Position numbers and translations under genes: made by a program | Assembly: GCA_016213825.1 (NCBI GenBank) | Contig: JACQZP010000002.1 | Coordinates: 1-64,000 of the forward strand | DNA: 64,000 nucleotides | DNA from: Acetobacterium woodii | GTDB lineage: Bacteria > Bacillota > Clostridia > Eubacteriales > Eubacteriaceae | Direction of reading: 5' to 3' | In this document: in pieces, positions 20,011 through 52,724 of the stretch | Numbering within the stretch: the first letter of the stretch is position 1 | How the letters are laid out: the number at the start of each line of letters is the position of its first letter | Notes under the pieces: model-generated | Databases searched by the model: none | What the model was told of the DNA's origin: nothing | Seen by the model: only the letters and a program-made list of their open reading frames with translations

Positions 20011-20250
20011 CAAAATTTAGAAATCGAACAAAGGTTGCTTTGATGTCTGTTTTCACAAACAACCAGAAGAAATCGCGGTGCGAATTTCTTCGAAGTCGCG
20101 GGCAGTCGCCAACTACAAGCAAGCTTGTGATTGGCTCGTTGCCTTCGCGAATTTTGTAACGTGTAGACGAACAGTCGATAGACTGTCCGTCGTACAGTGT
20201 AAAAATTGTTTCGTGTAAACGGGCAGCGAAGCTCAAGGTAGTTAATTAAC
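20011..20250 (+). repeat. Palindromic intergenic repeat, copy A (with internal insertion)
   Basis: Shares with the copies at 44911-45064 and 35481-35647 (the latter inverted) the order TCGAACAA..GTTGCTTTG, CACAAACAA, GTAACGTGTAG, CGAACAGTCGATAGACTGT, CGTACAGTGTA, AATTGTTTCGTGTAAAC and AAGCTC. The two halves are imperfect inverted repeats around ACAGTC-GATA-GACTGT. In this copy 20063-20150 is extra sequence, absent from the other two, which itself folds (ACAAGC-AA-GCTTGT centre and GAAGAAAT/AATTTCTTC arms). The element fills the gap between aconitase and the AIM24 gene; no protein gene is supported there. Confidence 0.8.
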
Positions 20251-35480: not shown

Positions 35481-35647
35481 GGTAATTGCGAAAGTGCCGT
35501 GAGCTTTGGGGGCAGTTTCGCACGAAACAATTTCTACACTGTACGGCGGACAGTTCGATGAACTGTTCGCCTACACGTTACGAAATTGTTTGTGGAAACT
35601 ACACCCAAAGCAACCGTTGTTCGATGTTTTTAATTTCGCAATTAACT
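35481..35647 (-). repeat. Palindromic intergenic repeat, copy B
   Basis: Inverted relative to copies A and C. The ends form terminal inverted repeats (GGTAATTGCGAAA at 35481-35493 against TTTCGCAATTAA at 35634-35645). The centre is ACAGTTC-GAT-GAACTGT, which differs from the ACAGTC-GATA-GACTGT of A and C on both arms, keeping the pairing. Lies between alr and the transketolase genes. A read of protein frames here gives only chance frames. Confidence 0.8.
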
Positions 35648-40064: not shown

Positions 40065-40093
40065 TTGACAAATGTAAGTAAATTCGTTATGAT
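40065..40093 (+). promoter_or_regulatory. Promoter of the cobalamin riboswitch/ECF operon
   Basis: TTGACA (40065-40070), exactly 17 bases, TATGAT (40088-40093). Predicted start near 40100, just before the riboswitch aptamer. Confidence 0.75.
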
Positions 40094-40114
40094 AAAGTCA
40101 ATAAAATAGCTACA

Positions 40115-40262
40115 AGATTTATGGTGCCTTGTTAAGAGGAGAATAGGGAATCAGGTGCGAATCCTGGACGAACCCATCACTGTGAATGGTTTTGTTTTTG
40201 CAAATGCCACTGGAAACGGGAAGGCGCAAAAACAGATAAACCAGAGTCAGGAGACCTGCCAT
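40115..40262 (+). promoter_or_regulatory. Cobalamin (adenosylcobalamin) riboswitch
   Basis: Aptamer landmarks occur in order: GGTGCC, GGGAATCAGGTGCGAATCC, ACCCATCACTGTGAATGG, TGCCACTGG..AACGGGAAGG and the B12 box AGTCAGGAGACCTGCC (ending 40260). Followed by an intrinsic terminator at 40287-40340, so control is by transcription termination when cobalamin is abundant. It governs the ECF genes downstream. Confidence 0.93.
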
Positions 40263-40286
40263 TAAATTATAATAGTATGAAACGAC

Positions 40287-40340
40287 GGTAAAGTTTCGGC
40301 TATCCTTAGGATTACCCTATCGATAGTCGGAACTTTTTTT
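40287..40340 (+). terminator. Expression-platform terminator of the cobalamin riboswitch
   Basis: AAAGTTTCGGCTATC pairs with GATAGTCGGAACTTT, followed by a T run (40335-40340). Confidence 0.85.
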
Positions 40341-40347
40341 ACGTGTA

Positions 40348-40489
40348 GGCATAAAGCCGTGCGAAGAATTTGGGAAATGAAATTTTGTTAGGCTCGCTTA
40401 TAAAGAATTTCATTTTTCAAATTCTTCATAGGGCGTAGCTCGCGACGGAGGTCGCAGCGCAGCGGAGACCGGAGTGCACGGCTTTATAC
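40348..40489. repeat. Nested 140-bp palindrome in the ECF leader
   Basis: Outer arms ATAAAGCCGTGC (40351-40362) and GCACGGCTTTAT (40476-40487) pair perfectly, 12 of 12. Inner arms 40363-40384 and 40406-40427 pair at 20 of 22 positions. The sequence between inner and outer right arms is GC-rich (CGCAGCGCAGCGGAG) and resembles words at 370-435. It lies in the transcribed leader between the riboswitch terminator and the first ECF gene, and could form a large RNA structure or a cruciform. The remaining 40490-40577 shows a further small inverted repeat (AGCCGAA..CGGCT) but no gene. Confidence 0.7.
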
Positions 40490-40577
40490 CAAACGGCAGT
40501 AATTTCGTGCGGAGCCGAAGCACTCGGCTATGTGTCGATAAAAGTTTATTCCAAAATAATAATTACGAGGCCACCCA

Positions 40578-42077
40578 ATGAAACCCATTATCCAACTGGA
40601 TATCAAAGCGCTCACTTTTCCAGACGAGCAGGAACCAGCGCTTAAAAACATCAAACTGAATATCATTGAGGGTGAATTCATTGCTATTACCGGCGGGGCA
40701 GCTTCGGGTAAATCACTGTTGCTTCATGCCATTACCTCGGCGGCACCCAAGTTTTATCCCTGCACGTTATCTGGGACGGTGAAGGTCGCCGATCAGGATG
40801 TATCTAGCATTCCCCTATGCCAAATGGCCGACTATCTGGGCTATATGATGCAGGAACCGCAAAACCAGATGGTTAACCGATGTGTTGGGGATGAGTTAGC
40901 TTTTGGGGTGTCCAATCTCAATTTGAGTCAGGACGAAATTGAGAGCCGAGTGAATGAAATTATGGACTTTTTGGGTATCAGAGAGTTCTCCGGCCGATAT
41001 ACTGATGCTTTATCTGGAGGACAAGCCCAGAAGGTGGTGCTAGGGAGTATTCTGGCGATGAAAACCCCCATCCTGCTCCTAGATCAGCCCACGGCCGAAC
41101 TTGATCCCAAAACCAGCACGGAACTTTATCGATACTTGGGCCAGCTGAATCGGGAGAAAAAAGTGACTACCCTGGTGGTTATGGACAAGTCCGGTGAGGT
41201 CTTAAAAGACGCCGACCGGGTGCTGGTGATGGAAGCGGGTACAGTGAAAGATTTCCTGCCGGTTGCCGAATATCACCAAAAATACGGTTGCCGAAAAAAC
41301 AACCGGCATTTAGAACCGCTCCAAGTGAATGAAAATACCGATATCATTAGGTTAAATGGCGCTTCTCATACCTATAAAGGTGGGATAACCGGCTGCCATC
41401 CCTTGAATTTTAATCTCAAAAAAGGCGATTTTACGGCGGTCATTGGGCAGAACGGTTCGGGTAAATCCACCATGCTTAAGCTTATCGAAGGATTGGTCAA
41501 GCCAAGTTCGGGCTCGGTGGAACTATTTGGAACACCAGTGACCAAGAAAAACGTAGGCGAACTGCGGCGGCAAATCGGGTTTCTGTTTCAGAACCCCGAT
41601 GATCAGATCTTTTGCAGCTCTGTCAAAGATGAAATCAGCTATGTTTTAAATAATAAAAACCTGAGTGAACATGAGCAAGATCAAAAGATTCAGGAAACCC
41701 TGGCTCTCATCGGTCTGGAAGGTCTGGACGAGATGCATCCCCAGCGATTGAGCCGGGGACAGCGCCAATTATTGGCGCTGGGTTCGGTAGTCATTAACGA
41801 TCCGGAGCTGATCATTGCCGATGAGCCGACCTCCGGCTTAAATGGTCCCCAAAGTCAAGTGGTCATGGAAAAACTGGCCCGGCTCAGCAGTCAGGGTGTC
41901 AGCATTTTGCTGGTGACCCACGATTTAGCTGAAGCCAGAGACTTTGCCAATCGGATTGTGGTGATGCACAATCATCAACTGGCCCTGGAATTTGCGGCAG
42001 AAAATATGGATGATTATCTGGACGACTTAGTTCGGCTGGAACTTATGGAAGGAGGAGATGATAAATGTTTAACCTGA
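40578..42077 (+). CDS. ECF transporter energizing ATPase, two fused ABC domains
   Basis: 499 aa with two complete ABC modules, the YkoD/fused EcfA arrangement. Domain 1: Walker A GGAASGKSLLL (about 39-49), signature ALSGGQAQKVVLGS, Walker B ILLLDQPTAELDP. Domain 2: Walker A GQNGSGKSTMLK (about 290-301), signature LSRGQRQLLALGS, Walker B LIIADEPTSGLNG. Powers vitamin or metal uptake together with the T and S components encoded next. ACGAGG precedes the ATG. Under the cobalamin riboswitch, so the cargo is probably cobalamin, a corrinoid precursor or cobalt-related; that is inference. Overlaps the T gene by 13 bases. Confidence 0.92.
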   Translation: MKPIIQLDIKALTFPDEQEPALKNIKLNIIEGEFIAITGGAASGKSLLLHAITSAAPKFYPCTLSGTVKVADQDVSSIPLCQMADYLGYMMQEPQNQMVNRCVGDELAFGVSNLNLSQDEIESRVNEIMDFLGIREFSGRYTDALSGGQAQKVVLGSILAMKTPILLLDQPTAELDPKTSTELYRYLGQLNREKKVTTLVVMDKSGEVLKDADRVLVMEAGTVKDFLPVAEYHQKYGCRKNNRHLEPLQVNENTDIIRLNGASHTYKGGITGCHPLNFNLKKGDFTAVIGQNGSGKSTMLKLIEGLVKPSSGSVELFGTPVTKKNVGELRRQIGFLFQNPDDQIFCSSVKDEISYVLNNKNLSEHEQDQKIQETLALIGLEGLDEMHPQRLSRGQRQLLALGSVVINDPELIIADEPTSGLNGPQSQVVMEKLARLSSQGVSILLVTHDLAEARDFANRIVVMHNHQLALEFAAENMDDYLDDLVRLELMEGGDDKCLT

Positions 42078-42796
42078 ACAAACTGGACCCACGGCTCAAG
42101 CTGACCTGGTGCCTGTTTCTGGTGTTGACGGCGTTGGTATCAAGAAGTATCCTGCTCAATGGTATTTTACTGGGGGTAATCCTCATCAGTGAACTGCTCT
42201 CGGAGAAAACCTTGAAAAACTTTAAAATGCTGACAGTGGTGTTGCTGATTATTGGCTCTCAGGTATTAATTATCAATCTACTCTTTGGAAGAGAAGGCGA
42301 GCTGCTTTATTCCTGGGGAATCCTGCAGATTTACAGCGGATTTATTGCAACCTCTATCCTGGCTTTTTTAAGAATCGGGATCATCTCGTTTTCGGCCTAT
42401 CAGTTTGGCATCCATACCGATACCATGGATATGGCTCAGATGCTCATTCACTGGCGGATTCCCTATCGCTATGCCATGCTGGTGCCAATGGTCGCCCGGT
42501 TTTTACCGGTGATGATTGGAGAATACCAGTCCATTTGCAATAGCCAGTCTGCTCGAGGGGTTCCTAATGATACCGTTGCTGAGAAAATTCGGAACCTGCC
42601 GGCCTCGATTTTACCGTTGATGTACCGGGCCATGCGGATCTCCAACGATGCAGCGCTATCGGTGGAGCTAAGAGGCTACGGCCGCCACGCATCCCGAAAT
42701 TTCCAGAAAAAAATTAATCTTCATCCCCTGGAAGGCATGACCATCGTCTGCCTGATTATCGGGTTTGGTGGGGTCTTAATAAAAACCATTTTGTAA
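42065..42796 (+). CDS. ECF transporter transmembrane T component
   Basis: 243 aa, about five to six membrane helices. The cytoplasmic coupling helices with the ECF-T Ala-Arg-Gly motifs are seen as SQSARGVPN (about 160-168) and VELRGYGRH (about 212-220). LDPRLKLTWCLFLVLTALVS is the typical N-terminus. GGAGGAGATGATAA precedes the ATG inside the ATPase gene, so translation is coupled. Connects the ATPase to the substrate-binding S component. Confidence 0.9.
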   Translation: MFNLNKLDPRLKLTWCLFLVLTALVSRSILLNGILLGVILISELLSEKTLKNFKMLTVVLLIIGSQVLIINLLFGREGELLYSWGILQIYSGFIATSILAFLRIGIISFSAYQFGIHTDTMDMAQMLIHWRIPYRYAMLVPMVARFLPVMIGEYQSICNSQSARGVPNDTVAEKIRNLPASILPLMYRAMRISNDAALSVELRGYGRHASRNFQKKINLHPLEGMTIVCLIIGFGGVLIKTIL

Positions 42797-42849
42797 TAGT
42801 TGAAAAACTGTGTAAATAAAAAATAATTTAAACAAAAAAGGAGCATAAA

Positions 42850-43407
42850 ATGCAAAACGAACAAGCAATTGGAAAAAAAAGTATTTTTAAAACCGACACC
42901 AAATCTTTAATTGGTGCCGTCGTCATGGGGATCGTCTTTGTTATCGCCTGCCAGATTACCGGCCAGATCGATAACATGCTGCCCTGGGGAAAAATGGGAA
43001 TGTTACTGATTAATGGAACGGTTTGGGCATTCTTTACCGGGATTCTGACACTGCTTTACAAACAGCCAGGCGGACTGATTGCCGCCGAAGTTGAAGCTTT
43101 GATCTCAATCATGTATACGCCCCTTTGGCCAACCTTTATCTTTGCCAACGGCATTGCGTCCATCTGGGTATCCTTCGTGGCTGTAAAATGTGACATGACC
43201 AAATGGTCGCATCACATTCTGGCTCAGGGTGGCGTTTGTGTTTTAGGTAACCTCATTGTTGCTGTGGGTCTGGTTTTCATTCTTGGTCTGCCAGTAAGTG
43301 TTGCGGCTGTTTCTACCCTGATAACCATTGGTGTAACCTGGCCATTGGCAACGCTGGCTCAAAAGAAAGTTTATGATGCATTATTAAAGTCAGGTATGGT
43401 AAAATAA
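42850..43407 (+). CDS. ECF transporter substrate-binding S component
   Basis: 185 aa with six hydrophobic segments. A cytoplasmic N-terminal tail carries MQNEQAIGKKSIFKTDTKS. The middle part (LLYKQPGGLIAAEVEALISI and TPLWPTFIFANGIASIWVSF) resembles YkoE/MptD-like S components. The family is used for vitamins or their precursors. The riboswitch suggests a cobalamin-related ligand such as a lower-ligand base or corrinoid, but the YkoE resemblance could also mean a thiamine precursor, so I leave the substrate open. AAAGGAG precedes the ATG. Third gene of the operon. Confidence 0.75.
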   Translation: MQNEQAIGKKSIFKTDTKSLIGAVVMGIVFVIACQITGQIDNMLPWGKMGMLLINGTVWAFFTGILTLLYKQPGGLIAAEVEALISIMYTPLWPTFIFANGIASIWVSFVAVKCDMTKWSHHILAQGGVCVLGNLIVAVGLVFILGLPVSVAAVSTLITIGVTWPLATLAQKKVYDALLKSGMVK

Positions 43408-43446
43408 TACGATAAAAGTCTAAAACAAAATAAAGAAAAATCAAGT

Positions 43447-43482
43447 GCTTTGGTATCTGTTTGGTAAAACAGGTGCCAAAGC
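43447..43482 (+). terminator. Hairpin between the ECF genes and ubiD
   Basis: GCTTTGGTATCTGTTT pairs with AAACAGGTGCCAAAGC over 16 positions (two G-U pairs) around a GGTA loop. The downstream T tract is weak (AATTTGTAGTTTT). It is either the ECF terminator or a leader structure of the decarboxylase operon. Confidence 0.55.
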
Positions 43483-43535
43483 AATTTGTAGTTTTACCAG
43501 TAGTTTATTCAATCACAATTAAGGAGAAATCGAAG

Positions 43536-44897
43536 ATGAGTCAGGATTTACGTGTGTTTTTAGAACAGTTGGATAAAGATGGGGAAATCTGCCATGTAAC
43601 AGAACCCGTCAAACGGGAATATGAAATCAGTACCTTGATGATGGAGCTGGAAAAACAGCGGAAATATCCGGTAATGTGGTTTGATCAGGTGGAAGGCGGC
43701 GATATTCCGGTGGTAACCAATATTCTGGGAACCAAAGACCGGTTTGCCAAAGCCATGGGCGTTAAAACCGAAGACCTGTCCTTTGAGTTTGCTGAACGGA
43801 TTAAAAATCGCTTTGATGACGTCAAGGTGGTCGAAAATCCCCCTTGCAATGCGCATCTGATTACTGGCGATGACGTTGATTTAACCAAGTTTCCGATTAT
43901 CACCCACTTTCCCATTGATGCCGGTCCTTACATTACTTCCGGTCTGACCGTGGCCAAAGATCCTGAAACCGGCTGTGAAACCCTGGGCTTTCATCGGCTG
44001 CAGCTGAAGGGAAAAAACAAGCTGGGGATTTCCTTCCACTCCCGTCAGCGGATGTGGGAATTTTTCAGAAAGAGTGAGGAACGGGGCGAAAACATGAAAG
44101 CCGCCATCTGTATTGGCGTTCATCCCAATATTGCCTTGGGTTCGCAAGCCTCAGTTCCCTATCATCTGGGAAAATACGGCGCCATCGGTGGATTGTTCGG
44201 GGAACCGTTGGAAGTATCCCCTTGTGCCACCATGGACCTTAATGTGCCCACCTATGCTGAAATTGTGCTGGAAGGCGAAGTGCTCTGCAATGTTCGGGAA
44301 CCAGAAGGGCCCTTTGCCGAATATACCAATTACGCCTGCTTCCGCAGTACCGAAAATGTCTTCCAGGTTAATGCCATCCGTTACCGGGAAAAACCGATTT
44401 TCCACGATTTGACCCCGGCCATGAGCAGCGAACACATCACCATCGTGTCGATCCAGCGGGAAGGCGATATTACTAAGTTTTTAAAACAGAATCTGCCCAA
44501 CATCAAGGCCGTCCATTCACCATTATCCTCCTGCGGAATTTTCCACTGCTATGTGTCGATGAAGAAAACCGCCGAAGGCCAGGCTCAACAGGTCATTTTA
44601 ACCGCTTTAGGGATGGACCATCACATCAAAATGGTCATTGTCGTGGATGAGGATGTGGATGTTTTCAACGAACAGGAAGTGCTGTGGGCCATGGCCACCC
44701 GGCTGCAAGCCGACAAGGGCGTCATGATCTTCCCTCATATGATGGGCGAAACCCTGGATCCCTCCACCGGCGACGATGGTCTTACCGCTAAAATGGGTAT
44801 CGATGCCACCAAACCCCTCAGCGGTTACTCACCAAAAATCGACATCGATGAAAATGTTATTAAAGATATCAAGCGATTGTTCAAGTACGTAAAATAG
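43536..44897 (+). CDS. ubiD: UbiD-family prenyl-FMN-dependent decarboxylase
   Basis: 453 aa from the ATG at 43536 (AAGGAG 9 bases upstream); an in-frame extension to 43461 would run through the hairpin. UbiD fold markers: ITSGLTVAKDPETGCETLGF, HRLQLKGKNKLGISFH, GLFGEPLEVSPCATMDLNVP, the acidic AEIVLEGEVL and EPEGPFAEYTNY segments that provide the catalytic Glu-Asp/Arg network, and SSEHITIVSIQREGD. These enzymes reversibly (de)carboxylate aromatic or unsaturated acids using the prenylated FMN made by UbiX, encoded 4 kb downstream. Length is short for UbiD (normally 450-500). Substrate unknown; the phenolic-acid or aromatic type is the common one. Confidence 0.9.
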   Translation: MSQDLRVFLEQLDKDGEICHVTEPVKREYEISTLMMELEKQRKYPVMWFDQVEGGDIPVVTNILGTKDRFAKAMGVKTEDLSFEFAERIKNRFDDVKVVENPPCNAHLITGDDVDLTKFPIITHFPIDAGPYITSGLTVAKDPETGCETLGFHRLQLKGKNKLGISFHSRQRMWEFFRKSEERGENMKAAICIGVHPNIALGSQASVPYHLGKYGAIGGLFGEPLEVSPCATMDLNVPTYAEIVLEGEVLCNVREPEGPFAEYTNYACFRSTENVFQVNAIRYREKPIFHDLTPAMSSEHITIVSIQREGDITKFLKQNLPNIKAVHSPLSSCGIFHCYVSMKKTAEGQAQQVILTALGMDHHIKMVIVVDEDVDVFNEQEVLWAMATRLQADKGVMIFPHMMGETLDPSTGDDGLTAKMGIDATKPLSGYSPKIDIDENVIKDIKRLFKYVK

Positions 44898-44910
44898 GTG
44901 ATCTGAAAAT

Positions 44911-45064
44911 TTTAATAATCGAACAATGATTGCTTTGATAGTCAGTTTCACAAACAATTTCGTAACGTGTAGGCGAACAGTCGATAGACTGTACGCCGTA
45001 CAGTGTAGAAATTGTTTCGTGTAAACTGGCTAGCGGAGCTCACGGCAGGATTAGAAACGATTAA
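44911..45064 (+). repeat. Palindromic intergenic repeat, copy C
   Basis: The tidiest copy: AACAATTTCGTAACGTGTAG and the complementary half read around ACAGTC-GATA-GACTGT (centre near 44986), with AATTGTTTCGTGTAAAC after it. Bounded by short inverted ends AATCG/CGATT. It separates ubiD from the hyuA-hyuB-ubiX-lpdD genes, in the same orientation as copy A. Confidence 0.8.
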
Positions 45065-45087
45065 GTATATTAAAAGAAGGATAAGAA

Positions 45088-47178
45088 ATGATAAAAATTG
45101 CGATTGACACCGGCGGCACCTTTACCGATTATACATCAGTGGGCTGTTTTGGGGATCAGGCGGAACAGCGGATTGCCCTGAAAAACCCCACCAACCATGA
45201 CCATCCAGCTCAGGGAATTCTGGCAGGACTCAAAGAACTGGCAGTGGTCTGGGGAACCGATCTGGAAAAATTATTGGCTCAGACCGAAAAAATATCGCTG
45301 GGAACTACTCTGGCCCTCAATGCCCTGCTGGAGAAAAAAGGGGTTAAAACAGCTCTGTTCACCACTGAGGGATTTAGGGATGCCCTGGAAATTCGTCGGG
45401 CGCAGCTGGCCAATCAGTGGGATCTGGCCATTGAAAACCCGATGGTTCTGGTGCCCCGGCGGCTGCGTTTAGGCATTGAACAGCGGATGGACTACCAGGG
45501 AGCTGTGATTAAGCCCCTTAATGAAGCAGCTGTTCGGGCAGCCTGTCAGAAATGTCGGGAAGCTGACGTAAAAGCCATTGCGGTTTGTTATCTGTTTTCA
45601 TTTCTTAATCCGGACCATGAAAAACGGACGGCTGAAATTATCCAAGAAGAACTGCCGGATGTGTTTGTGTCGCTATCCTCGGAAGTCTCGCCCCGAATCC
45701 GGGAGTACGAGCGGACCACCACCACGGTGATCAATGCCTACTGCACCCCGGTGCTGGCTGATTATCTGAAGAATGTCAAACAAGAACTGGCTGTCTTTGG
45801 CTGGGACAAGCCGGTGCACATTATGAAAAACAGCGGCGGTCTCAGCGATTCACAAGCCTTGGAGAACTTTGGGGTTAAGACCTTGTTATCTGGTCCTGCC
45901 GGCGGTGCTGTGGGCAATTTATCCTTGGGCAAATACCTGGGCCGAACCCATACGGTCCTGGCAGACATGGGCGGAACCAGCTTTGACCTCCATGTGGTCA
46001 GCGGCGGCGTCAATCAATTGGTGCCTCAAACCGAACTGGACGGCTATCCCCTGAGCATTCCGATGATCGATATCCGCTCCATCGGCGCCGGCGGCGGCAG
46101 TATTGCCCATGTGGAAGCTGGCGGACGGGTGCTGATTGGCCCGGACTCCGCCGGTTCGATTCCTGGCCCGGCCTGCTACAATCAGGGCGGCGAGCAACCG
46201 ACGGTAACCGATGCGCTGCTGGTGCTGGGACTGATCAACGGCGAAAATTTTCTCGGCGGCAAGTTGCCGCTATCCATGGATCAGGCGGTTAAAGCCATTA
46301 AAGAAAAGGTGGCGGATCCCTTAAATCTTTCGGTGCAGGATGTCGCCCGGATCATTTACAGCATCACGGCGGAAATGATGGCCGATGCGATGCGGCTGGT
46401 GACCACCCAAAAAGGGAACGATCCGCGGATTTATAGCCTGATCAGTGCCGGCGGTGCCTTTGGTCTGTTTGCTGCCCGGATTATGGAATCCCTGCAAATG
46501 CCGGAAGCCCTGATTCCGGTGCAGGGGCCGGTCTTTTGTTCCTGGGGAATGCTGGGCGCGTCCTGCCGTTATGACATTAACCAGAGTATTCTGATGGAAA
46601 AAAGACAATGGGATGCCGATCGCCTAAATACCATGGTTACGGCCATGAAGACCGAAGGGTCGGCGCAGTTGGAACGGCTGGGGGTAGCCAAAAACCGCCA
46701 GCGCTTTGATCTGATGCTGGAAATGCGCTATGTCAGTCAGCACCACGAGATCTCGGTCCCATGGACCTTAGGCGAATTTACTCCCGAAAGTGTCAAGGAC
46801 GTGGAGCAAGCCTTCTATAAAACTCATGAAGCCATTTATGAATATGCCGAAGACAAAGATTGGGAAATCATCGATCTGCATTTGGCCTGCTCTGAACTCG
46901 ACCAGGAGAATATTTTGTTCCCGACTTCAAAGGCGACAAGCGATGACACAACAAAAAGCATGGCAACCAAAACCGTTGCCGGCGAAGTCTTTAACAGCCA
47001 GGGCGAGATTAGGGTTCCCGTTTATCGGGATGGCGATTTAACAGAAGCGATTTCCGGTCCGGCGCTGATTGATTTTGCCTATACGACGTTAATTGTTCCC
47101 AACGGTTTTTATTGTATTCAGGAGGACGAAGGCATCTTCGCGCTCAGAAAGGAGGCGACCCATGAATCAGCGAACTGA
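45088..47178 (+). CDS. HyuA-type hydantoinase/oxoprolinase/acetophenone-carboxylase subunit A
   Basis: 696 aa. The N-terminal IAIDTGGTFTDYT is the ATP-phosphate binding loop of the ASKHA-fold HyuA/oxoprolinase family. ALNALLEKKGVKTALFTTEGFRD, HIMKNSGGLS, LLSGPAGGAVG, ADMGGTSFDLHVVSGG and GAGGGSIAHVEAGG follow in the usual order. Together with a HyuB subunit it performs ATP-dependent ring opening (hydantoin, oxoproline) or ATP-dependent ketone carboxylation (acetone or acetophenone carboxylase). Which one cannot be told. AAGGAT precedes the ATG weakly. Its end overlaps hyuB by 17 bases, so the subunits are made together. Confidence 0.9.
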   Translation: MIKIAIDTGGTFTDYTSVGCFGDQAEQRIALKNPTNHDHPAQGILAGLKELAVVWGTDLEKLLAQTEKISLGTTLALNALLEKKGVKTALFTTEGFRDALEIRRAQLANQWDLAIENPMVLVPRRLRLGIEQRMDYQGAVIKPLNEAAVRAACQKCREADVKAIAVCYLFSFLNPDHEKRTAEIIQEELPDVFVSLSSEVSPRIREYERTTTTVINAYCTPVLADYLKNVKQELAVFGWDKPVHIMKNSGGLSDSQALENFGVKTLLSGPAGGAVGNLSLGKYLGRTHTVLADMGGTSFDLHVVSGGVNQLVPQTELDGYPLSIPMIDIRSIGAGGGSIAHVEAGGRVLIGPDSAGSIPGPACYNQGGEQPTVTDALLVLGLINGENFLGGKLPLSMDQAVKAIKEKVADPLNLSVQDVARIIYSITAEMMADAMRLVTTQKGNDPRIYSLISAGGAFGLFAARIMESLQMPEALIPVQGPVFCSWGMLGASCRYDINQSILMEKRQWDADRLNTMVTAMKTEGSAQLERLGVAKNRQRFDLMLEMRYVSQHHEISVPWTLGEFTPESVKDVEQAFYKTHEAIYEYAEDKDWEIIDLHLACSELDQENILFPTSKATSDDTTKSMATKTVAGEVFNSQGEIRVPVYRDGDLTEAISGPALIDFAYTTLIVPNGFYCIQEDEGIFALRKEATHESAN

Positions 47179-48892
47179 TGATATCATTAACCGCACGGTA
47201 ATTATGAACCGGCTGGACAGCATCACCAGTGAAATGGGCATTGCCTTGGAGCGATCGGCCCATTCCCCGATTTTTGCCGAAGCCTGTGATTTTGCCTGCT
47301 GTATCTGCGATGAAGACGGCGAGCTTGTCTCTCAACTCAGCGGTATCCCGATCCTGGCTACGGCGGGATCTTTCAGTGTCAAAGCGATACTCCGAAAATA
47401 CGGAGGAGTCATTGAAGATGGTGATGTTTTTATTATCAATGACCCCTATGATGGTGGCAACCATCTGCCGGATATCGGCATCATCACTCCGGTGTTTTAT
47501 CAGGACGAGTTGTTGTTCTTCTGTGTCAGCCGAGCTCATCACGGCGACATCGGCGGTTCCACTGCCGGCAGCTACAACCCCAAGGCGACGGAGATCTTTC
47601 AGGAAGGGCTGCGGATTCCGCCCACCCGGCTGATGAAAAACAACGAAATGCTTACCGATGTGCTGGAACTGATCCGCCTGAATACCCGAAATCCGGAGAT
47701 GCTGACCAGTGACTTTCTGGCCCAGATTGGTTCCAACCGACTGGCCGCCCGACGGATCAAAGAGATGTTAAGCACCTATTCGGCGGCCACCGTCAAGAAA
47801 GCGGTGACTGAGTCGTTGATTCAGACCGAAACCTTGACCCGCCAGCGGATTGCCGCCATTCCTGACGGCACCTACAGCGCCGTGGATTATATTGATGATG
47901 ACGGTTTTCAAACCGAACCGGTCAAAATCGCCGTAGCGGTGACCATCACCGGCGACCGGATGCTGGTTGATTTTTCCGGCACCGATGCCCAGGTCAAAGG
48001 TTTTATCAACACCTCGGTGGTGACGGCCACCTGTGCTTCCGGCATTGCTGCCCTGTGGTTCCTGGGTAAAGACATTCCCCGAAACAGCGGTGCCTTCCGG
48101 TGCATTGAAGTTAACCTACCGATGGGATCGCTGGTTAATCCCAATCTCCCGGCACCAATGACCCTGTGCACCCTGACCCCGGCCAGCGAAATCATCGGCG
48201 TGATTTTTAAAGCCCTGGATCAGGCTCAGTCGGGCAAGGTATCCGCCGGCTACCACCGCTATCTGGGACCATCCTTTTATGGCGTAGATCCCCGGAATGA
48301 CCGCTACTATGTCGGTTTTTCCTTTTGTTCGCTGGGCAGCGGCGGCGCCATGGCCGGCCACGACGGCAAACCCTATATGGCGACCTTATCCAACTTCGGT
48401 GGGGTCAAGGCGCCTAATATCGAATCCAACGAGGTCCAATATCCCCATATTACCCTGCATCATGAAATGGATAATGACACCGCCGGAGCCGGCGAATATC
48501 GGGGTGGCTGCGGCATGAAATATGCTTTTGAGATCACCGCTGAAAAGGGTGATGTGGTCAATTTTGGTGATGGCATCAAATTTGCTCCCTATGGACTCCG
48601 GGGCGGTCATCAGGGCAGCCTGAACCGCAGCGTCTTTGTTCATGATGGCGAGGAAATCATCATGGAAAGCAAGGAAGCCCCCCGGCATGCGGTGAAAGGT
48701 GATCGGATTTACCTGAACACCAGCAGCGGCGGCGGCTGGGGCGAACCCATGAAACGGCTCCCTCAAAAAGTCTATGACGATGTACTGGATGAGATTATTT
48801 CCAAAGAAACCGCCGAAGCAGTTTATGGCGTCATCATCAATGAAACCGGCATCGATTTTGAAAAAACAGAAAAACGGAGAAACAATTCATGA
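47162..48892 (+). CDS. HyuB-type hydantoinase/acetophenone-carboxylase subunit B
   Basis: 576 aa from the ATG at 47162, with AAAGGAGG upstream. HyuB features: RLDSITSEMGIALERSAHSP near the N-terminus, FIINDPYDGGNHLPDI, VSRAHHGDIGGSTAGSYNP, and metal-binding-looking VDFSGTDAQVKGFINTSV. The late segment AGEYRGGCGMKYAFE follows. Length is within the 550-600 range of this subunit. Pairs with the preceding HyuA. Its stop overlaps the ATG of ubiX by four bases (ATGA). Presence of UbiD, UbiX and LpdD around it points to carboxylation/decarboxylation chemistry rather than hydantoin use; this is inference. Confidence 0.9.
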   Translation: MNQRTDDIINRTVIMNRLDSITSEMGIALERSAHSPIFAEACDFACCICDEDGELVSQLSGIPILATAGSFSVKAILRKYGGVIEDGDVFIINDPYDGGNHLPDIGIITPVFYQDELLFFCVSRAHHGDIGGSTAGSYNPKATEIFQEGLRIPPTRLMKNNEMLTDVLELIRLNTRNPEMLTSDFLAQIGSNRLAARRIKEMLSTYSAATVKKAVTESLIQTETLTRQRIAAIPDGTYSAVDYIDDDGFQTEPVKIAVAVTITGDRMLVDFSGTDAQVKGFINTSVVTATCASGIAALWFLGKDIPRNSGAFRCIEVNLPMGSLVNPNLPAPMTLCTLTPASEIIGVIFKALDQAQSGKVSAGYHRYLGPSFYGVDPRNDRYYVGFSFCSLGSGGAMAGHDGKPYMATLSNFGGVKAPNIESNEVQYPHITLHHEMDNDTAGAGEYRGGCGMKYAFEITAEKGDVVNFGDGIKFAPYGLRGGHQGSLNRSVFVHDGEEIIMESKEAPRHAVKGDRIYLNTSSGGGWGEPMKRLPQKVYDDVLDEIISKETAEAVYGVIINETGIDFEKTEKRRNNS

Positions 48893-49458
48893 AAATTGCA
48901 GTGGGAATTACCGGCGCCTCCGGTGTCGTTTACGGCATTCGGTTGCTGGAAGCCTTAAAAGAGACTGAACACCATGTCTCGCTGATCATCAGTGAATGGG
49001 GCAACAAAACCATTGGCCTGGAAACCAGTTATACTGAAGATTATGTGCTGTCCCTGACCGATCAGGTTTATGACTGCCGGGATATGGCTGCCGCTGTGTC
49101 CAGCGGCTCCTACGGCATTGAAGCCACCGTGATTGCCCCCTGCAGCATGAAAACCCTGGCTGGCATCGCCAATGGTTTCAGCAATAACCTGATTGTCCGG
49201 ATTGGCGATGTGGCACTAAAAGAACGCAAACCGCTGATTCTGATGGTTCGGGAGACGCCGCTGACGCTGATTCATCTCCGGAATATGACCGCGGTTACCG
49301 AGGCTGGCGGGATTATTCTGCCACCGATGCCGGGCTTTTACCACAAGCCCCAATCGATTGATGAAATAATCAACCAGAGTGTCGGCAAGGTCTTTGATAT
49401 GCTCAAGATCCCTCACAATCTGTTTACCCGCTGGGGCCATGAGGTTGGCCATGAGTGA
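48889..49458 (+). CDS. ubiX: Flavin prenyltransferase UbiX
   Basis: 189 aa. It prenylates reduced FMN with dimethylallyl phosphate to make the prFMN cofactor of UbiD. VGITGASGVVYGIRLLEAL (about 5-23) is the FMN-binding start. SGSYGIEATVIAPCSMKTLAGIANG and REKPLILMVRETPLTLIHLR-like segments (KERKPLILMVRETPL, with the conserved Arg/Glu/Pro set) are all present. The four-base overlap with hyuB means coupled translation. The gene completes a self-contained cofactor system with ubiD. Confidence 0.95.
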   Translation: MKIAVGITGASGVVYGIRLLEALKETEHHVSLIISEWGNKTIGLETSYTEDYVLSLTDQVYDCRDMAAAVSSGSYGIEATVIAPCSMKTLAGIANGFSNNLIVRIGDVALKERKPLILMVRETPLTLIHLRNMTAVTEAGGIILPPMPGFYHKPQSIDEIINQSVGKVFDMLKIPHNLFTRWGHEVGHE

Positions 49459-49813
49459 GTGCATCAAACTGATTCAAGGCACCGGGAAAACAGCGCTGAA
49501 TTATGAAATCACGTCTGTCGGCAATGACTGGTTGATTCTGCTCACCGGCGGCGACGCCCACATCGGCTGCACCGCCATTGGCGATGACGGCCGACTGAGC
49601 AGCTATACCCCCCAGTCTCATAAAGACGATGCCCTGGCGATACCGCTGGCAAAAAAAGTTTCGCAAACCTTTCACTGCATCTGTACCGTGGTAGCCGGAT
49701 TCCATCTGGACGAGATTACCCGGGAAGAAATAGTTGAGGTTATTGCTAATGCGGATATAGGGATGGTTCAAGTTTTAAAAACCATTAAACAAAAGATGAA
49801 TCAGAAAGAATGA
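49451..49813 (+). CDS. LpdD-like prenyl-FMN-associated small protein
   Basis: 120 aa from the ATG at 49451 (GAGG 6 bases upstream), overlapping ubiX by 8 bases. The segments LIQGTGKTALNYEITSVGND, GGDAHIGCTAIGD and CICTVVAGFHLDEITREEI resemble the small D subunit/chaperone (LpdD-like) encoded beside UbiX and UbiD in gallate/phenolic-acid decarboxylase loci. It is thought to help deliver or protect the prenylated flavin. Recognition is from memory of the family pattern, so moderate confidence. Followed directly by a terminator. Confidence 0.75.
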   Translation: MSECIKLIQGTGKTALNYEITSVGNDWLILLTGGDAHIGCTAIGDDGRLSSYTPQSHKDDALAIPLAKKVSQTFHCICTVVAGFHLDEITREEIVEVIANADIGMVQVLKTIKQKMNQKE

Positions 49814-50742: not shown

Positions 50743-51513
50743 ATGGGACATATTATTGCATTAGCCGGAAAAGGTGGGGTTGGCAAAACGACTCTGTGTG
50801 GTTTACTGATTCAGTATTTGTGTGATGCCGGAAAGGTACCGGTGTTAGCAGTGGATGCTGATGCCAATTCAAATTTGAATGAGGTACTTGGTGTCAAGGC
50901 GGGTCCAACGATGGGTGAACTTCGAGAAATCATCGAGCGGGCTGGCGTCGATTCAAGCTATGAGATTCCTGAAGGAATAACTAAGGCCACTTATATGGAA
51001 ATGCGGATGAACGACGCAATTACTGAAGAAAAAGATTATGATCTGATGGTGATGGGACGTTCACAGGGGCAAGGATGTTATTGTTTTGTCAATGGGATTG
51101 TCCAAACGCAGATACAGCGACTTCAGACGAATTACCCTGTTATTGTTGTGGATAATGAAGCCGGGATGGAACATATCAGCCGGGGATTATTGCCCAAAAT
51201 AGATACGGTGATTCTGGTGAGTGACTGTTCCCGACGGGGCGTACAGGCAGCCGGAAGAATTTCCAGGCTGATTAGCGAATTAAAGGTTCAACCAACGAGA
51301 ATTGGTCTGATTGTCAATCGGGCACCAGCAGGAAAGCTTGATCCCGGGACGCTGGAAGAGGTTCAAATTCAGGAATTACCACTTTTAGGTGTTGTTCCAC
51401 AAGACCAGCAAGTTTATCAGTATGACTGTGATGGCAAACCTATTGTTAAATTACCAGATGATTCACCAGTTCGTGCTGCACTGAAGCAAATTGCCGATAA
51501 TCTGCAATTATAA
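50743..51513 (+). CDS. CooC-type nickel-insertion P-loop ATPase (first copy)
   Basis: 256 aa, MinD/SIMIBI-class ATPase of the CooC/AcsF group. Deviant Walker A ALAGKGGVGKTTLCG (residues 6-20), switch VDADANSNLNEVLG, and the CxC dimer metal site MGRSQGQGCYCFVNG (about 105-119). VVDNEAGMEHISRG is the downstream acidic box. These proteins load Ni into CO dehydrogenase or acetyl-CoA synthase. GAGGAG precedes the ATG. First gene of an operon with a zinc-ribbon protein, an acidic protein and a second CooC. Confidence 0.9.
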   Translation: MGHIIALAGKGGVGKTTLCGLLIQYLCDAGKVPVLAVDADANSNLNEVLGVKAGPTMGELREIIERAGVDSSYEIPEGITKATYMEMRMNDAITEEKDYDLMVMGRSQGQGCYCFVNGIVQTQIQRLQTNYPVIVVDNEAGMEHISRGLLPKIDTVILVSDCSRRGVQAAGRISRLISELKVQPTRIGLIVNRAPAGKLDPGTLEEVQIQELPLLGVVPQDQQVYQYDCDGKPIVKLPDDSPVRAALKQIADNLQL

Positions 51514-51956: not shown

Positions 51957-52724
51957 ATGAAAATAGCTGTAACCGGTAAAGGTGGAGTGGGAAAAACGAC
52001 GATTGCCGCAACGTTGGCACGTTTGTATGCAAAAGAGGGAAAACGGGTGATTGCGGCCGATGCTGATCCCGATGCAAATTTGGCCTTGGCATTAGGATTT
52101 ACCGAAGACGAAGCGGATGCCATTGTTCCGATCAGCGCAATGAAAAAAATGATTGCTGAACGGACTGGAGTAACTGAGCAGAACACTTTTTTTAAAATCA
52201 ATCCCCGGGTCGATGATATTCCGGAAATCTACAGCCGTGAGCACGAGGGTGTTAAATTGCTGGTTTTGGGAACAGTTGAAACAGCCGGTGGAGGATGCAT
52301 TTGCCCGGAGAATGTCATTTTGAAACAACTGATCAGCAACCTGATCTTATTCAGGGACGAGGTAGCTATTTTGGATATGGAAGCAGGTCTCGAGCATTTA
52401 GGCAGAGGAACAACCCAGGGAATGGATCAGTTTATTGTGGTAATTGAGCCGGGTGCCAGAAGTATTCAGACGTATCGTAATGTCAAGCGACTGGCTAAAG
52501 ATTTAGGGGTGCCGCGGGTCGGCGTGATTGCCAATAAAATTCGGGATGAGAAGGATGAAGCGTTTGTTCGTTCAAAAATCGCCGAGGAAGAGCTGTTGGG
52601 CCTGATTCATTTCAATGCGGAAGTCATTGATGCAGACCGTAATGGCATCTCCCCTTTTGATTGCAGTCAGGGTCTGATTGATGAGATTATCAGCATCAAA
52701 GAGCGGATTGAACACTTACAGTGA
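51957..52724 (+). CDS. cooC: CooC-type nickel-insertion P-loop ATPase (second copy)
   Basis: 255 aa. Walker A TGKGGVGKTTIAATLARL (residues 6-23), ADADPDANLALALG, and the CxC metal site TVETAGGGCICPENV (about 104-118), then LDMEAGLEHLGRGT. Closer to classical CooC of CO dehydrogenase maturation (GGGCICPE site) than the first copy, whose site is GQGCYCF. GGGGAG precedes the ATG. Differing metal-site wording suggests different client enzymes, for example CODH and ACS; inference only. No CODH gene is in this window. Confidence 0.92.
   Translation: MKIAVTGKGGVGKTTIAATLARLYAKEGKRVIAADADPDANLALALGFTEDEADAIVPISAMKKMIAERTGVTEQNTFFKINPRVDDIPEIYSREHEGVKLLVLGTVETAGGGCICPENVILKQLISNLILFRDEVAILDMEAGLEHLGRGTTQGMDQFIVVIEPGARSIQTYRNVKRLAKDLGVPRVGVIANKIRDEKDEAFVRSKIAEEELLGLIHFNAEVIDADRNGISPFDCSQGLIDEIISIKERIEHLQ

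Follow-up and report, generated by a model that had tools for sequence, protein, structure and literature searches.

Layout of the locus and its riboswitch

We analyzed a 64,000-nucleotide stretch of Acetobacterium woodii DNA (the window; assembly GCA_016213825.1, contig JACQZP010000002.1, positions 1 to 64,000 of the forward strand), in which genes for a UbiD-type decarboxylase, a HyuA-HyuB pair, a UbiX prenyltransferase and a small LpdD-like protein lie together. A preliminary description had called these five genes co-oriented and the last four overlapping, and this was correct. All five are present on the + strand, and the overlaps are 17 bases (hyuA/hyuB), 4 bases (hyuB/ubiX) and 8 bases (ubiX/lpdD). 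Directly upstream of ubiD is a complete energy-coupling factor (ECF) importer (ecfA/ecfT/ecfS, 40578-43407), preceded by a cobalamin (B12) riboswitch. These features, by position in the window, are as follows.

40105-40277, + strand: cobalamin (B12) riboswitch aptamer, RF00174; 99.2 bits against a gathering score of 31.5, over the full model length (1-189)
40293-40340, + strand: hairpin and T run immediately behind the aptamer; probably the riboswitch terminator, read by eye
40578-42077, + strand: ecfA, two-domain ECF ATPase; TIGR04520 over its cut-off, two ATP-binding cassette (ABC) domains
42065-42796, + strand: ecfT, CbiQ-family transmembrane component; PF02361, 87 bits against a cut-off of 25
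42850-43407, + strand: ecfS, S component of a new type, assigned to no Pfam or NCBIfam family; perhaps YkoE-like in fold (low-confidence model)
43446-43483, + strand: hairpin between ecfS and ubiD; 17 pairs, z of -3.66 for the stretch; terminator-like in a pattern scan
43536-44897, + strand: ubiD, (de)carboxylase of the type that uses prenylated flavin mononucleotide (FMN); PF20695, PF01977 and PF20696 all over their cut-offs
45088-47178, + strand: hyuA, ATPase subunit of a hydantoinase/oxoprolinase-type enzyme; PF05378, PF01968 and PF19278 over their cut-offs; best PDB match 6YRA (5-oxoprolinase)
47162-48892, + strand: hyuB, second subunit of the hydantoinase/oxoprolinase-type enzyme; PF02538, 516 bits
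48889-49458, + strand: ubiX, flavin prenyltransferase making the UbiD cofactor; TIGR00421 and NF004685 over their cut-offs
49451-49813, + strand: gene for the LpdD-like small protein; PAC_bac, PF21758, 90 bits against a cut-off of 27

The start of hyuB is the ATG at 47162; the hyuB sequence that we analyzed began at 47159 and was one residue longer. The importer has the layout of a group I ECF system, a single operon with dedicated genes for A, T and S, and ecfS adjoins ecfA/ecfT in most relatives.

An aptamer followed by a hairpin and a T run is the usual form of a transcription-terminating riboswitch. The hairpin at 40293-40340 was not listed by our terminator pattern scan, which allows loops of 3 to 8 only. 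Just before the riboswitch is a promoter-like site with 11 of 12 bases (40065-40093; there are 23 such sites in the region versus 13.7 expected by chance). The second hairpin, between ecfS and ubiD, is a candidate partial terminator, attenuator or processing site. Its pattern recurs in 8 of 15 Acetobacterium genomes, and one locus (L029) has a divergent stem with the pairing kept. We also noted by eye that the sequence from the riboswitch terminator to ecfA holds an inverted-repeat-like stretch (40345-40490), partly kept at the same place in L035, L037, L039, L042 and L044.

There are eight B12 riboswitches in the genome of the window. One belongs to the bza operon (L091), in which BzaB, CobT and BzaD score over their NCBIfam cut-offs. 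Judged by eye from the opening residues of each open reading frame (ORF), two of the other six precede cobalt importers, the second of which is followed by tetrapyrrole genes. The remaining four stand in front of a B12-type ABC importer with genes for cobalamin synthesis, an Opp-type ABC importer, and genes resembling those for an amidotransferase and a ribonucleotide reductase. The cluster is one of several B12 riboswitch targets in this genome. At L090 (12252-12447, - strand), the genes behind a B12 riboswitch look by eye like those for a small histidine-rich regulator, a peptidase and an Opp-type ABC importer, which perhaps takes up a cobalt chelate.

Conservation and co-occurrence of the parts

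We examined 19 Acetobacterium genomes. UbiD was found at 81% identity or higher in 15 of them, and the S component was found in the same 15. The order ubiD-hyuA-hyuB-ubiX-lpdD was kept in all 14 of the other genomes with UbiD (ubiX in G002 and hyuB in G018 are split over two frames, through mutation or an error of assembly). Of the 12 other genomes with assembled sequence upstream of ecfA, 11 have a B12 riboswitch there. UbiX scored over its cut-off in 13/13 tested genomes with the cluster's UbiD versus 0/3 tested Acetobacterium genomes without the cluster (all such genomes but G006). In the genome of the window, this locus holds the only UbiD match and the only UbiX that exceeds the family cut-off.

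A distant genome of the order (G059, locus L028) carries the genes as hyuA-hyuB-ecfS-ubiD-ecfA-ecfT with a B12 riboswitch in front; its ubiX is elsewhere. Because this reshuffled order keeps the same parts under the same control, it is the strongest single argument that the importer, UbiD and HyuAB belong together.

We then used a sample of 398 genomes of the phylum. The S profile matched 17 of these. One match, in G550, is a remote homologue (26%) and was left out, leaving 16 genomes including that of the window. UbiD orthologues (at least 55% identity; next best, 45%) were present in 12 genomes and HyuB orthologues (at least 57%; next best, 44%) in 10, with both cuts placed at gaps after the gaps were seen. 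All 12 UbiD genomes and all 10 HyuB genomes fall inside the 16 with the S component. The hypergeometric values are 7e-20 and 3e-16, respectively, which are not true probabilities because the species are related.

The S loci outside the window's own genome number 16 (L143-L158, G550 included). At 14 of these, a B12 riboswitch is upstream on the same strand, with a transposase-like gene intervening in L144; the two without it are L153, where S is alone, and L158, the remote homologue. UbiD is clustered with S at 10/16 loci and HyuAB at 8/16. Linked orthologues also occur in classes of the phylum other than that of the window. In one genome (G449), ecfA-ecfT-ubiD-hyuA-hyuB are together on one contig (L170), and the sole S match is on another (L154). 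A separate B12 riboswitch serves ubiX in L157, where the next gene is lpdD-like by eye.

As a control, we examined 12 of the 14 next-best UbiD loci (37 to 46% identity) with up to ~5.5 kb on each side. Contig ends truncate three of these regions, and at two of the three (L212 and L213) there is almost no upstream DNA, leaving 10 that are informative there. Matches to HyuA, HyuB or EcfS were found at none of the 12. UbiX was present at three, and a B12 riboswitch was present at one, downstream of its ubiD. All UbiDs in a collection of 421 plasmid records were under 60% identity to that of the cluster.

The preliminary description had suggested a single undescribed pathway comprising UbiD/UbiX and HyuAB and had proposed a neighborhood search as the check. 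The pairing proved to be non-random (14/14 in the genus, 12/12 and 10/10 inside the S-component genomes of the phylum, and 0/12 in the control). These comparisons support one evolutionarily linked set made up of the B12 riboswitch, UbiD and its partners UbiX and LpdD, HyuAB, and an ECF importer that has a dedicated S component.

Several neighboring features are less constant. Between ubiD and hyuA there are 190 bases in the window, including a dispersed repeat, versus 13 bases in a close relative (L033). A methyltransferase gene is divergent from the riboswitch.

44907-45047, no strand assigned: dispersed repeat of ~140 bp between ubiD and hyuA, with copies elsewhere in the window and the genome
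38348-39910, - strand: methyltransferase with a BzaC-like N-terminal part and DUF2284; possible accessory

Other intergenic copies of the repeat are at 35495-35636 and 20012-20241 of the window and in L090, L093 and L094. Over 354 positions, the N-terminal part of the methyltransferase is 37% identical to the one encoded in the bza operon of this genome. We rejected it as a fixed part of the cluster, having found no match beside the cluster in several relatives (for example, L030-L032). Its likeness to bza might be a further, weak link to lower-ligand chemistry, by a gene that is not kept everywhere. A similar gene, containing DUF2284 in L144, is also beside the cluster in L144-L146. The adjoining reductive-dehalogenase-like set suggests that these three genomes are probably Dehalobacter. 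Two genes for CooC-like ATPases are just downstream in the window (50743-51513 and 51957-52724); among 24 relative loci there were two weak matches (28%) to the second. A uppS-like gene is beside the cluster in L149, L151, L156 and L170, which looks like conserved local synteny (domain scan of the L149 copy).

Enzymes, S component and possible role

UbiD enzymes act on aromatic or conjugated acids. The cluster's UbiD has R154, E257 and E262, invariant in 12/12 aligned orthologues, which we take from Fdc1 to be the catalytic Arg-Glu-Glu triad. Its nearest solved relatives are 6H6X/6H6V, presumably the furan-dicarboxylate decarboxylase HmfF.

HyuAB was less simple to place. It is in the same superfamily as the acetone and acetophenone carboxylases, and the preliminary description had taken it to be carboxylase-like. 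This would make it an ATP-dependent carboxylase of an aromatic compound or ketone, with UbiD at another step of carbon catabolism. However, the comparisons favored hydrolases. Against the PDB, HyuA scored 406.5 bits with 5-oxoprolinase (6YRA) and 365.5 bits with N-methylhydantoinase (6YRA and 7HK5 being best), compared with 297.5 bits for an acetophenone carboxylase subunit and 234.5 bits for an acetone carboxylase subunit. The caprolactamase model gave 549 bits and ApcC 317 bits, with neither cut-off reached; against the caprolactamase NCBIfam equivalogs, HyuA and HyuB reached 549/1000 and 349/1000 bits, both under the cut-off. We found no additional carboxylase subunit in the window's cluster and saw none in the ORF lists of relatives (partly by eye). 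HyuB has a histidine/aspartate pattern (H102, D105 and H127, invariant in 9/9 orthologues), which we take to resemble the superfamily's metal site. The carboxylases share this pattern, and it therefore does not discriminate between hydrolase and carboxylase. By similarity, HyuA appears nearer to lactam and hydantoin hydrolases than to the acetone and acetophenone carboxylases, which suggests a hydrolase role for HyuAB but does not prove it.

ECF importers serve micronutrients, and an importer of this kind under B12 repression is ill suited to bulk catabolism. With the B12 riboswitch and the ECF importer present, a micronutrient pathway linked to B12 becomes a likelier role than carbon catabolism, and we consider the carboxylase explanation very improbable.

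Alternatively, the cluster might salvage or detoxify a lactam or hydantoin, its B12 control being incidental. The L158 locus is in keeping with this, as its remote S homologue (26%) is in an ECF cluster beside hydantoin-racemase-like and cyclic-amidase-like genes (by eye) and has no B12 riboswitch. However, rearranged gene orders retain the riboswitch and 14/16 loci have it, which is too consistent for an accident. We therefore judge this explanation improbable as well.

No Pfam or NCBIfam family was assigned to the S component. PF09819 (YkoE) was not listed for it at an E value of 10 or below (HMMER filters drop most matches above ~0.1), and had no match in G000. The S profile also matched no PDB chain at an E value of 10 or below. 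A structure model built from close relatives only had six helices and a mean predicted local distance difference test score of 56.5. The top Foldseek match of this low-confidence model was YkoE (5EDL), with a probability of 1.00, a template-modeling score of 0.58 and an E value of 0.086; there was no match at an E value of 0.001. Other ECF S components (5X3X, 4DVE and 4TKR) were lower in the list, among unrelated membrane proteins. Aligning the S family (19 rows) with 10 PF09819 homologues by hhalign gave 37%, which is suggestive only. Trp59 is invariant in the S family (19/19). The available text of PMC5037267 describes a YkoE Trp that stacks on the pyrimidine of thiamine. By analogy, we would guess at a ligand with a pyrimidine-like ring.

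These results also bear on whether the ECF system imports corrinoids or cobinamide, as CbrT does, with UbiD and HyuAB co-regulated for another reason, such as corrinoid remodeling or repair. B12 riboswitches control transporters of B12 and its precursors, and riboswitch analysis has led to ECF importers (available text of PMC3766115). Also, L152 and L155 carry ECF genes under the riboswitch without UbiD or HyuAB. However, none of the PDB chains, which we take to include CbrT structures, matched the S profile, and the best fold match, albeit from a weak model, was a thiamine S component. Corrinoids also offer no aromatic or conjugated acid to UbiD. Corrinoid import is the least improbable of the alternatives, but we consider it unlikely.

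Taken together, the cluster is very likely a B12-controlled import-and-processing unit. Our best overall explanation, which we hold tentatively, is a cobalamin-repressed uptake-and-processing unit that most likely supplies a cobamide lower ligand or its precursor. A lower ligand fits because an aromatic base is the one need of B12 synthesis that suits an aromatic decarboxylase. As a purpose, lower-ligand supply is the most likely one, yet we propose it with considerable doubt. The unity of the cluster and its riboswitch control have sequence support; substrate, product and purpose are all inferred.

In this scheme, the riboswitch would let transcription proceed when cobamide is low. The S component would capture a scarce heteroaromatic compound from outside, and HyuAB would hydrolyze a cyclic amide or ureide in it, spending ATP. 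UbiX would prenylate FMN, and UbiD would strip a carboxyl group from the aromatic product. In this way the cell would obtain a lower-ligand base or its precursor from its surroundings, either in addition to de novo synthesis by bza or in place of it. A more specific version, which is speculative, is oxygen-independent salvage: a fused heteroaromatic compound with a cyclic amide or ureide ring (e.g., a flavin-, pteridine- or purine-type breakdown product) would be imported, its ring opened by HyuAB with ATP, and the resulting acid decarboxylated by UbiD toward a benzimidazole- or purine-like base.

Several observations weigh against the overall explanation. The cluster contains neither CobT nor other nucleotide-loop genes. 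Tandem bza-type genes are present in 8/17 S-component genomes, including that of the window, and the cluster does not track bza presence or absence. Because many carriers have bza genes, a second lower-ligand source would often be redundant. The gene set also varies. L148 and L157 have ecfS and ubiD without HyuAB alongside, and neither genome has a HyuB orthologue elsewhere. ECF genes occur without UbiD in L152 and L155 (the L155 contig ends 2 kb further on, and its genome has no such UbiD or HyuB). In L153, S stands alone and the riboswitch is absent. In L154 (9996-12759) and L156 (9965-12776), the B12 riboswitch and S are with ferredoxin-like and aldehyde-oxidoreductase-like genes, with no UbiD beside S (L156 by eye); the L154 aldehyde-oxidoreductase-like gene scored 273 bits against NF007354, for which the cut-off is 868. 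Variants without HyuAB, without UbiD, or with ferredoxin and oxidoreductase genes beside ecfS do not fit one reaction scheme. Control might also vary. In the metagenome assembly G002 (L039), only a truncated riboswitch remnant is left (13.1 bits; L039 12154-12300, - strand), and in the eight Acetobacterium genomes with the hairpin between ecfS and ubiD, it could uncouple the enzymes from the riboswitch.

An anticorrelation with bza was considered as a sign of a lower-ligand role and was seen neither in the genus nor in the phylum. At least two ThiC-family genes are present in 18/19 Acetobacterium genomes; the exception, G006, has a single gene and lacks the cluster.

A B12-sparing role was also considered, in which the compound, once imported and processed, would stand in for a product normally made with a B12-dependent enzyme. 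Known targets of B12 riboswitches include B12-independent isozymes (available text of PMC3766115), and the ribonucleotide-reductase-like gene behind another B12 riboswitch of this genome is in line with such a role. However, the S family is scattered (17/398 genomes). Furthermore, we know of no B12-dependent product that a lactam hydrolase and a UbiD decarboxylase would yield. This makes a B12-sparing role doubtful.

Lower-ligand supply would matter because B12-type cofactors limit acetogens and dechlorinating bacteria, and the source of the lower ligand in anaerobes without known genes is largely open. If it is true, the salvage route would join BluB and Bza as a third kind of supply of the benzimidazole type. 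The riboswitch gives the UbiD/HyuAB pathway a physiological address, B12 shortage, and the S component offers a substrate-binding assay, making the pathway directly testable.

Comparison with known systems

The unit is real, conserved and apparently undescribed. Its layout is a variation on the known B12-riboswitch ECF uptake operon, and its parts are from known families except for the S component. In the literature that we searched, there was no printed description of a UbiD-HyuAB-ECF unit, or of UbiD tied to a cobamide, although mention in subscription papers is possible. UbiD and riboswitch occurred together in two papers, which by their titles treat other topics. The main text of a riboswitch regulon survey (PMC3766115), as available, is without UbiD, hydantoin or decarboxylase. 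A study of B12 starvation in Dehalobacter restrictus (PMC4285132) reports five riboswitch operons, none with the cluster's genes in the main text, and the words UbiD, hydantoin, oxoprolinase and decarboxylase are absent from its available text. In PMC4809877, by its title on Ruegeria small RNAs, riboswitch and hydantoinase occur once each and UbiD does not. Betaine methyltransferase clusters of acetogens contain a hydantoinase/oxoprolinase-family protein, in a different setting (available text of PMC9768040).

Two known importers are the closest parallels for uptake. In CbrT-type operons, an ECF importer likewise follows a B12 riboswitch. However, the S component here is without a PDB sequence match, and enzymes for decarboxylation and ATP-dependent hydrolysis are within the unit. 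The YkoEDC transporter of thiamine and hydroxymethylpyrimidine (available text of PMC5037267) also has dedicated genes for a double ATPase, T and S, and YkoE (5EDL) was the best fold match of our weak model. Each S component has a Trp, and Trp59 may be equivalent in position to that of YkoE. The cluster differs in having no PF09819 match, a B12 riboswitch and coupled enzymes.

The enzymes have parallels of their own. The UbiX-UbiD-LpdD-type trio is shared with the non-oxidative hydroxyarylic acid decarboxylases of the Vdc/Lpd type, but the cluster scores under the NCBIfam cut-offs for VdcB (236/290 bits) and VdcC (309/650 bits), and HyuAB, the ECF importer and B12 control are extra. HyuAB shares the two-subunit Hydantoinase_A/Hydantoinase_B architecture with 5-oxoprolinase, N-methylhydantoinase and caprolactamase, which are also its best sequence matches. 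However, it is far under the caprolactamase cut-offs, and it is linked to UbiD and B12. Finally, the bza operon of the same genome is also controlled by a B12 riboswitch, and its methyltransferase is related to the divergent neighbor gene of the cluster. The cluster differs from it in having no ThiC-like or radical S-adenosylmethionine genes and no BzaA/BzaB/BzaF or BzaD, and import would take the place of de novo synthesis.

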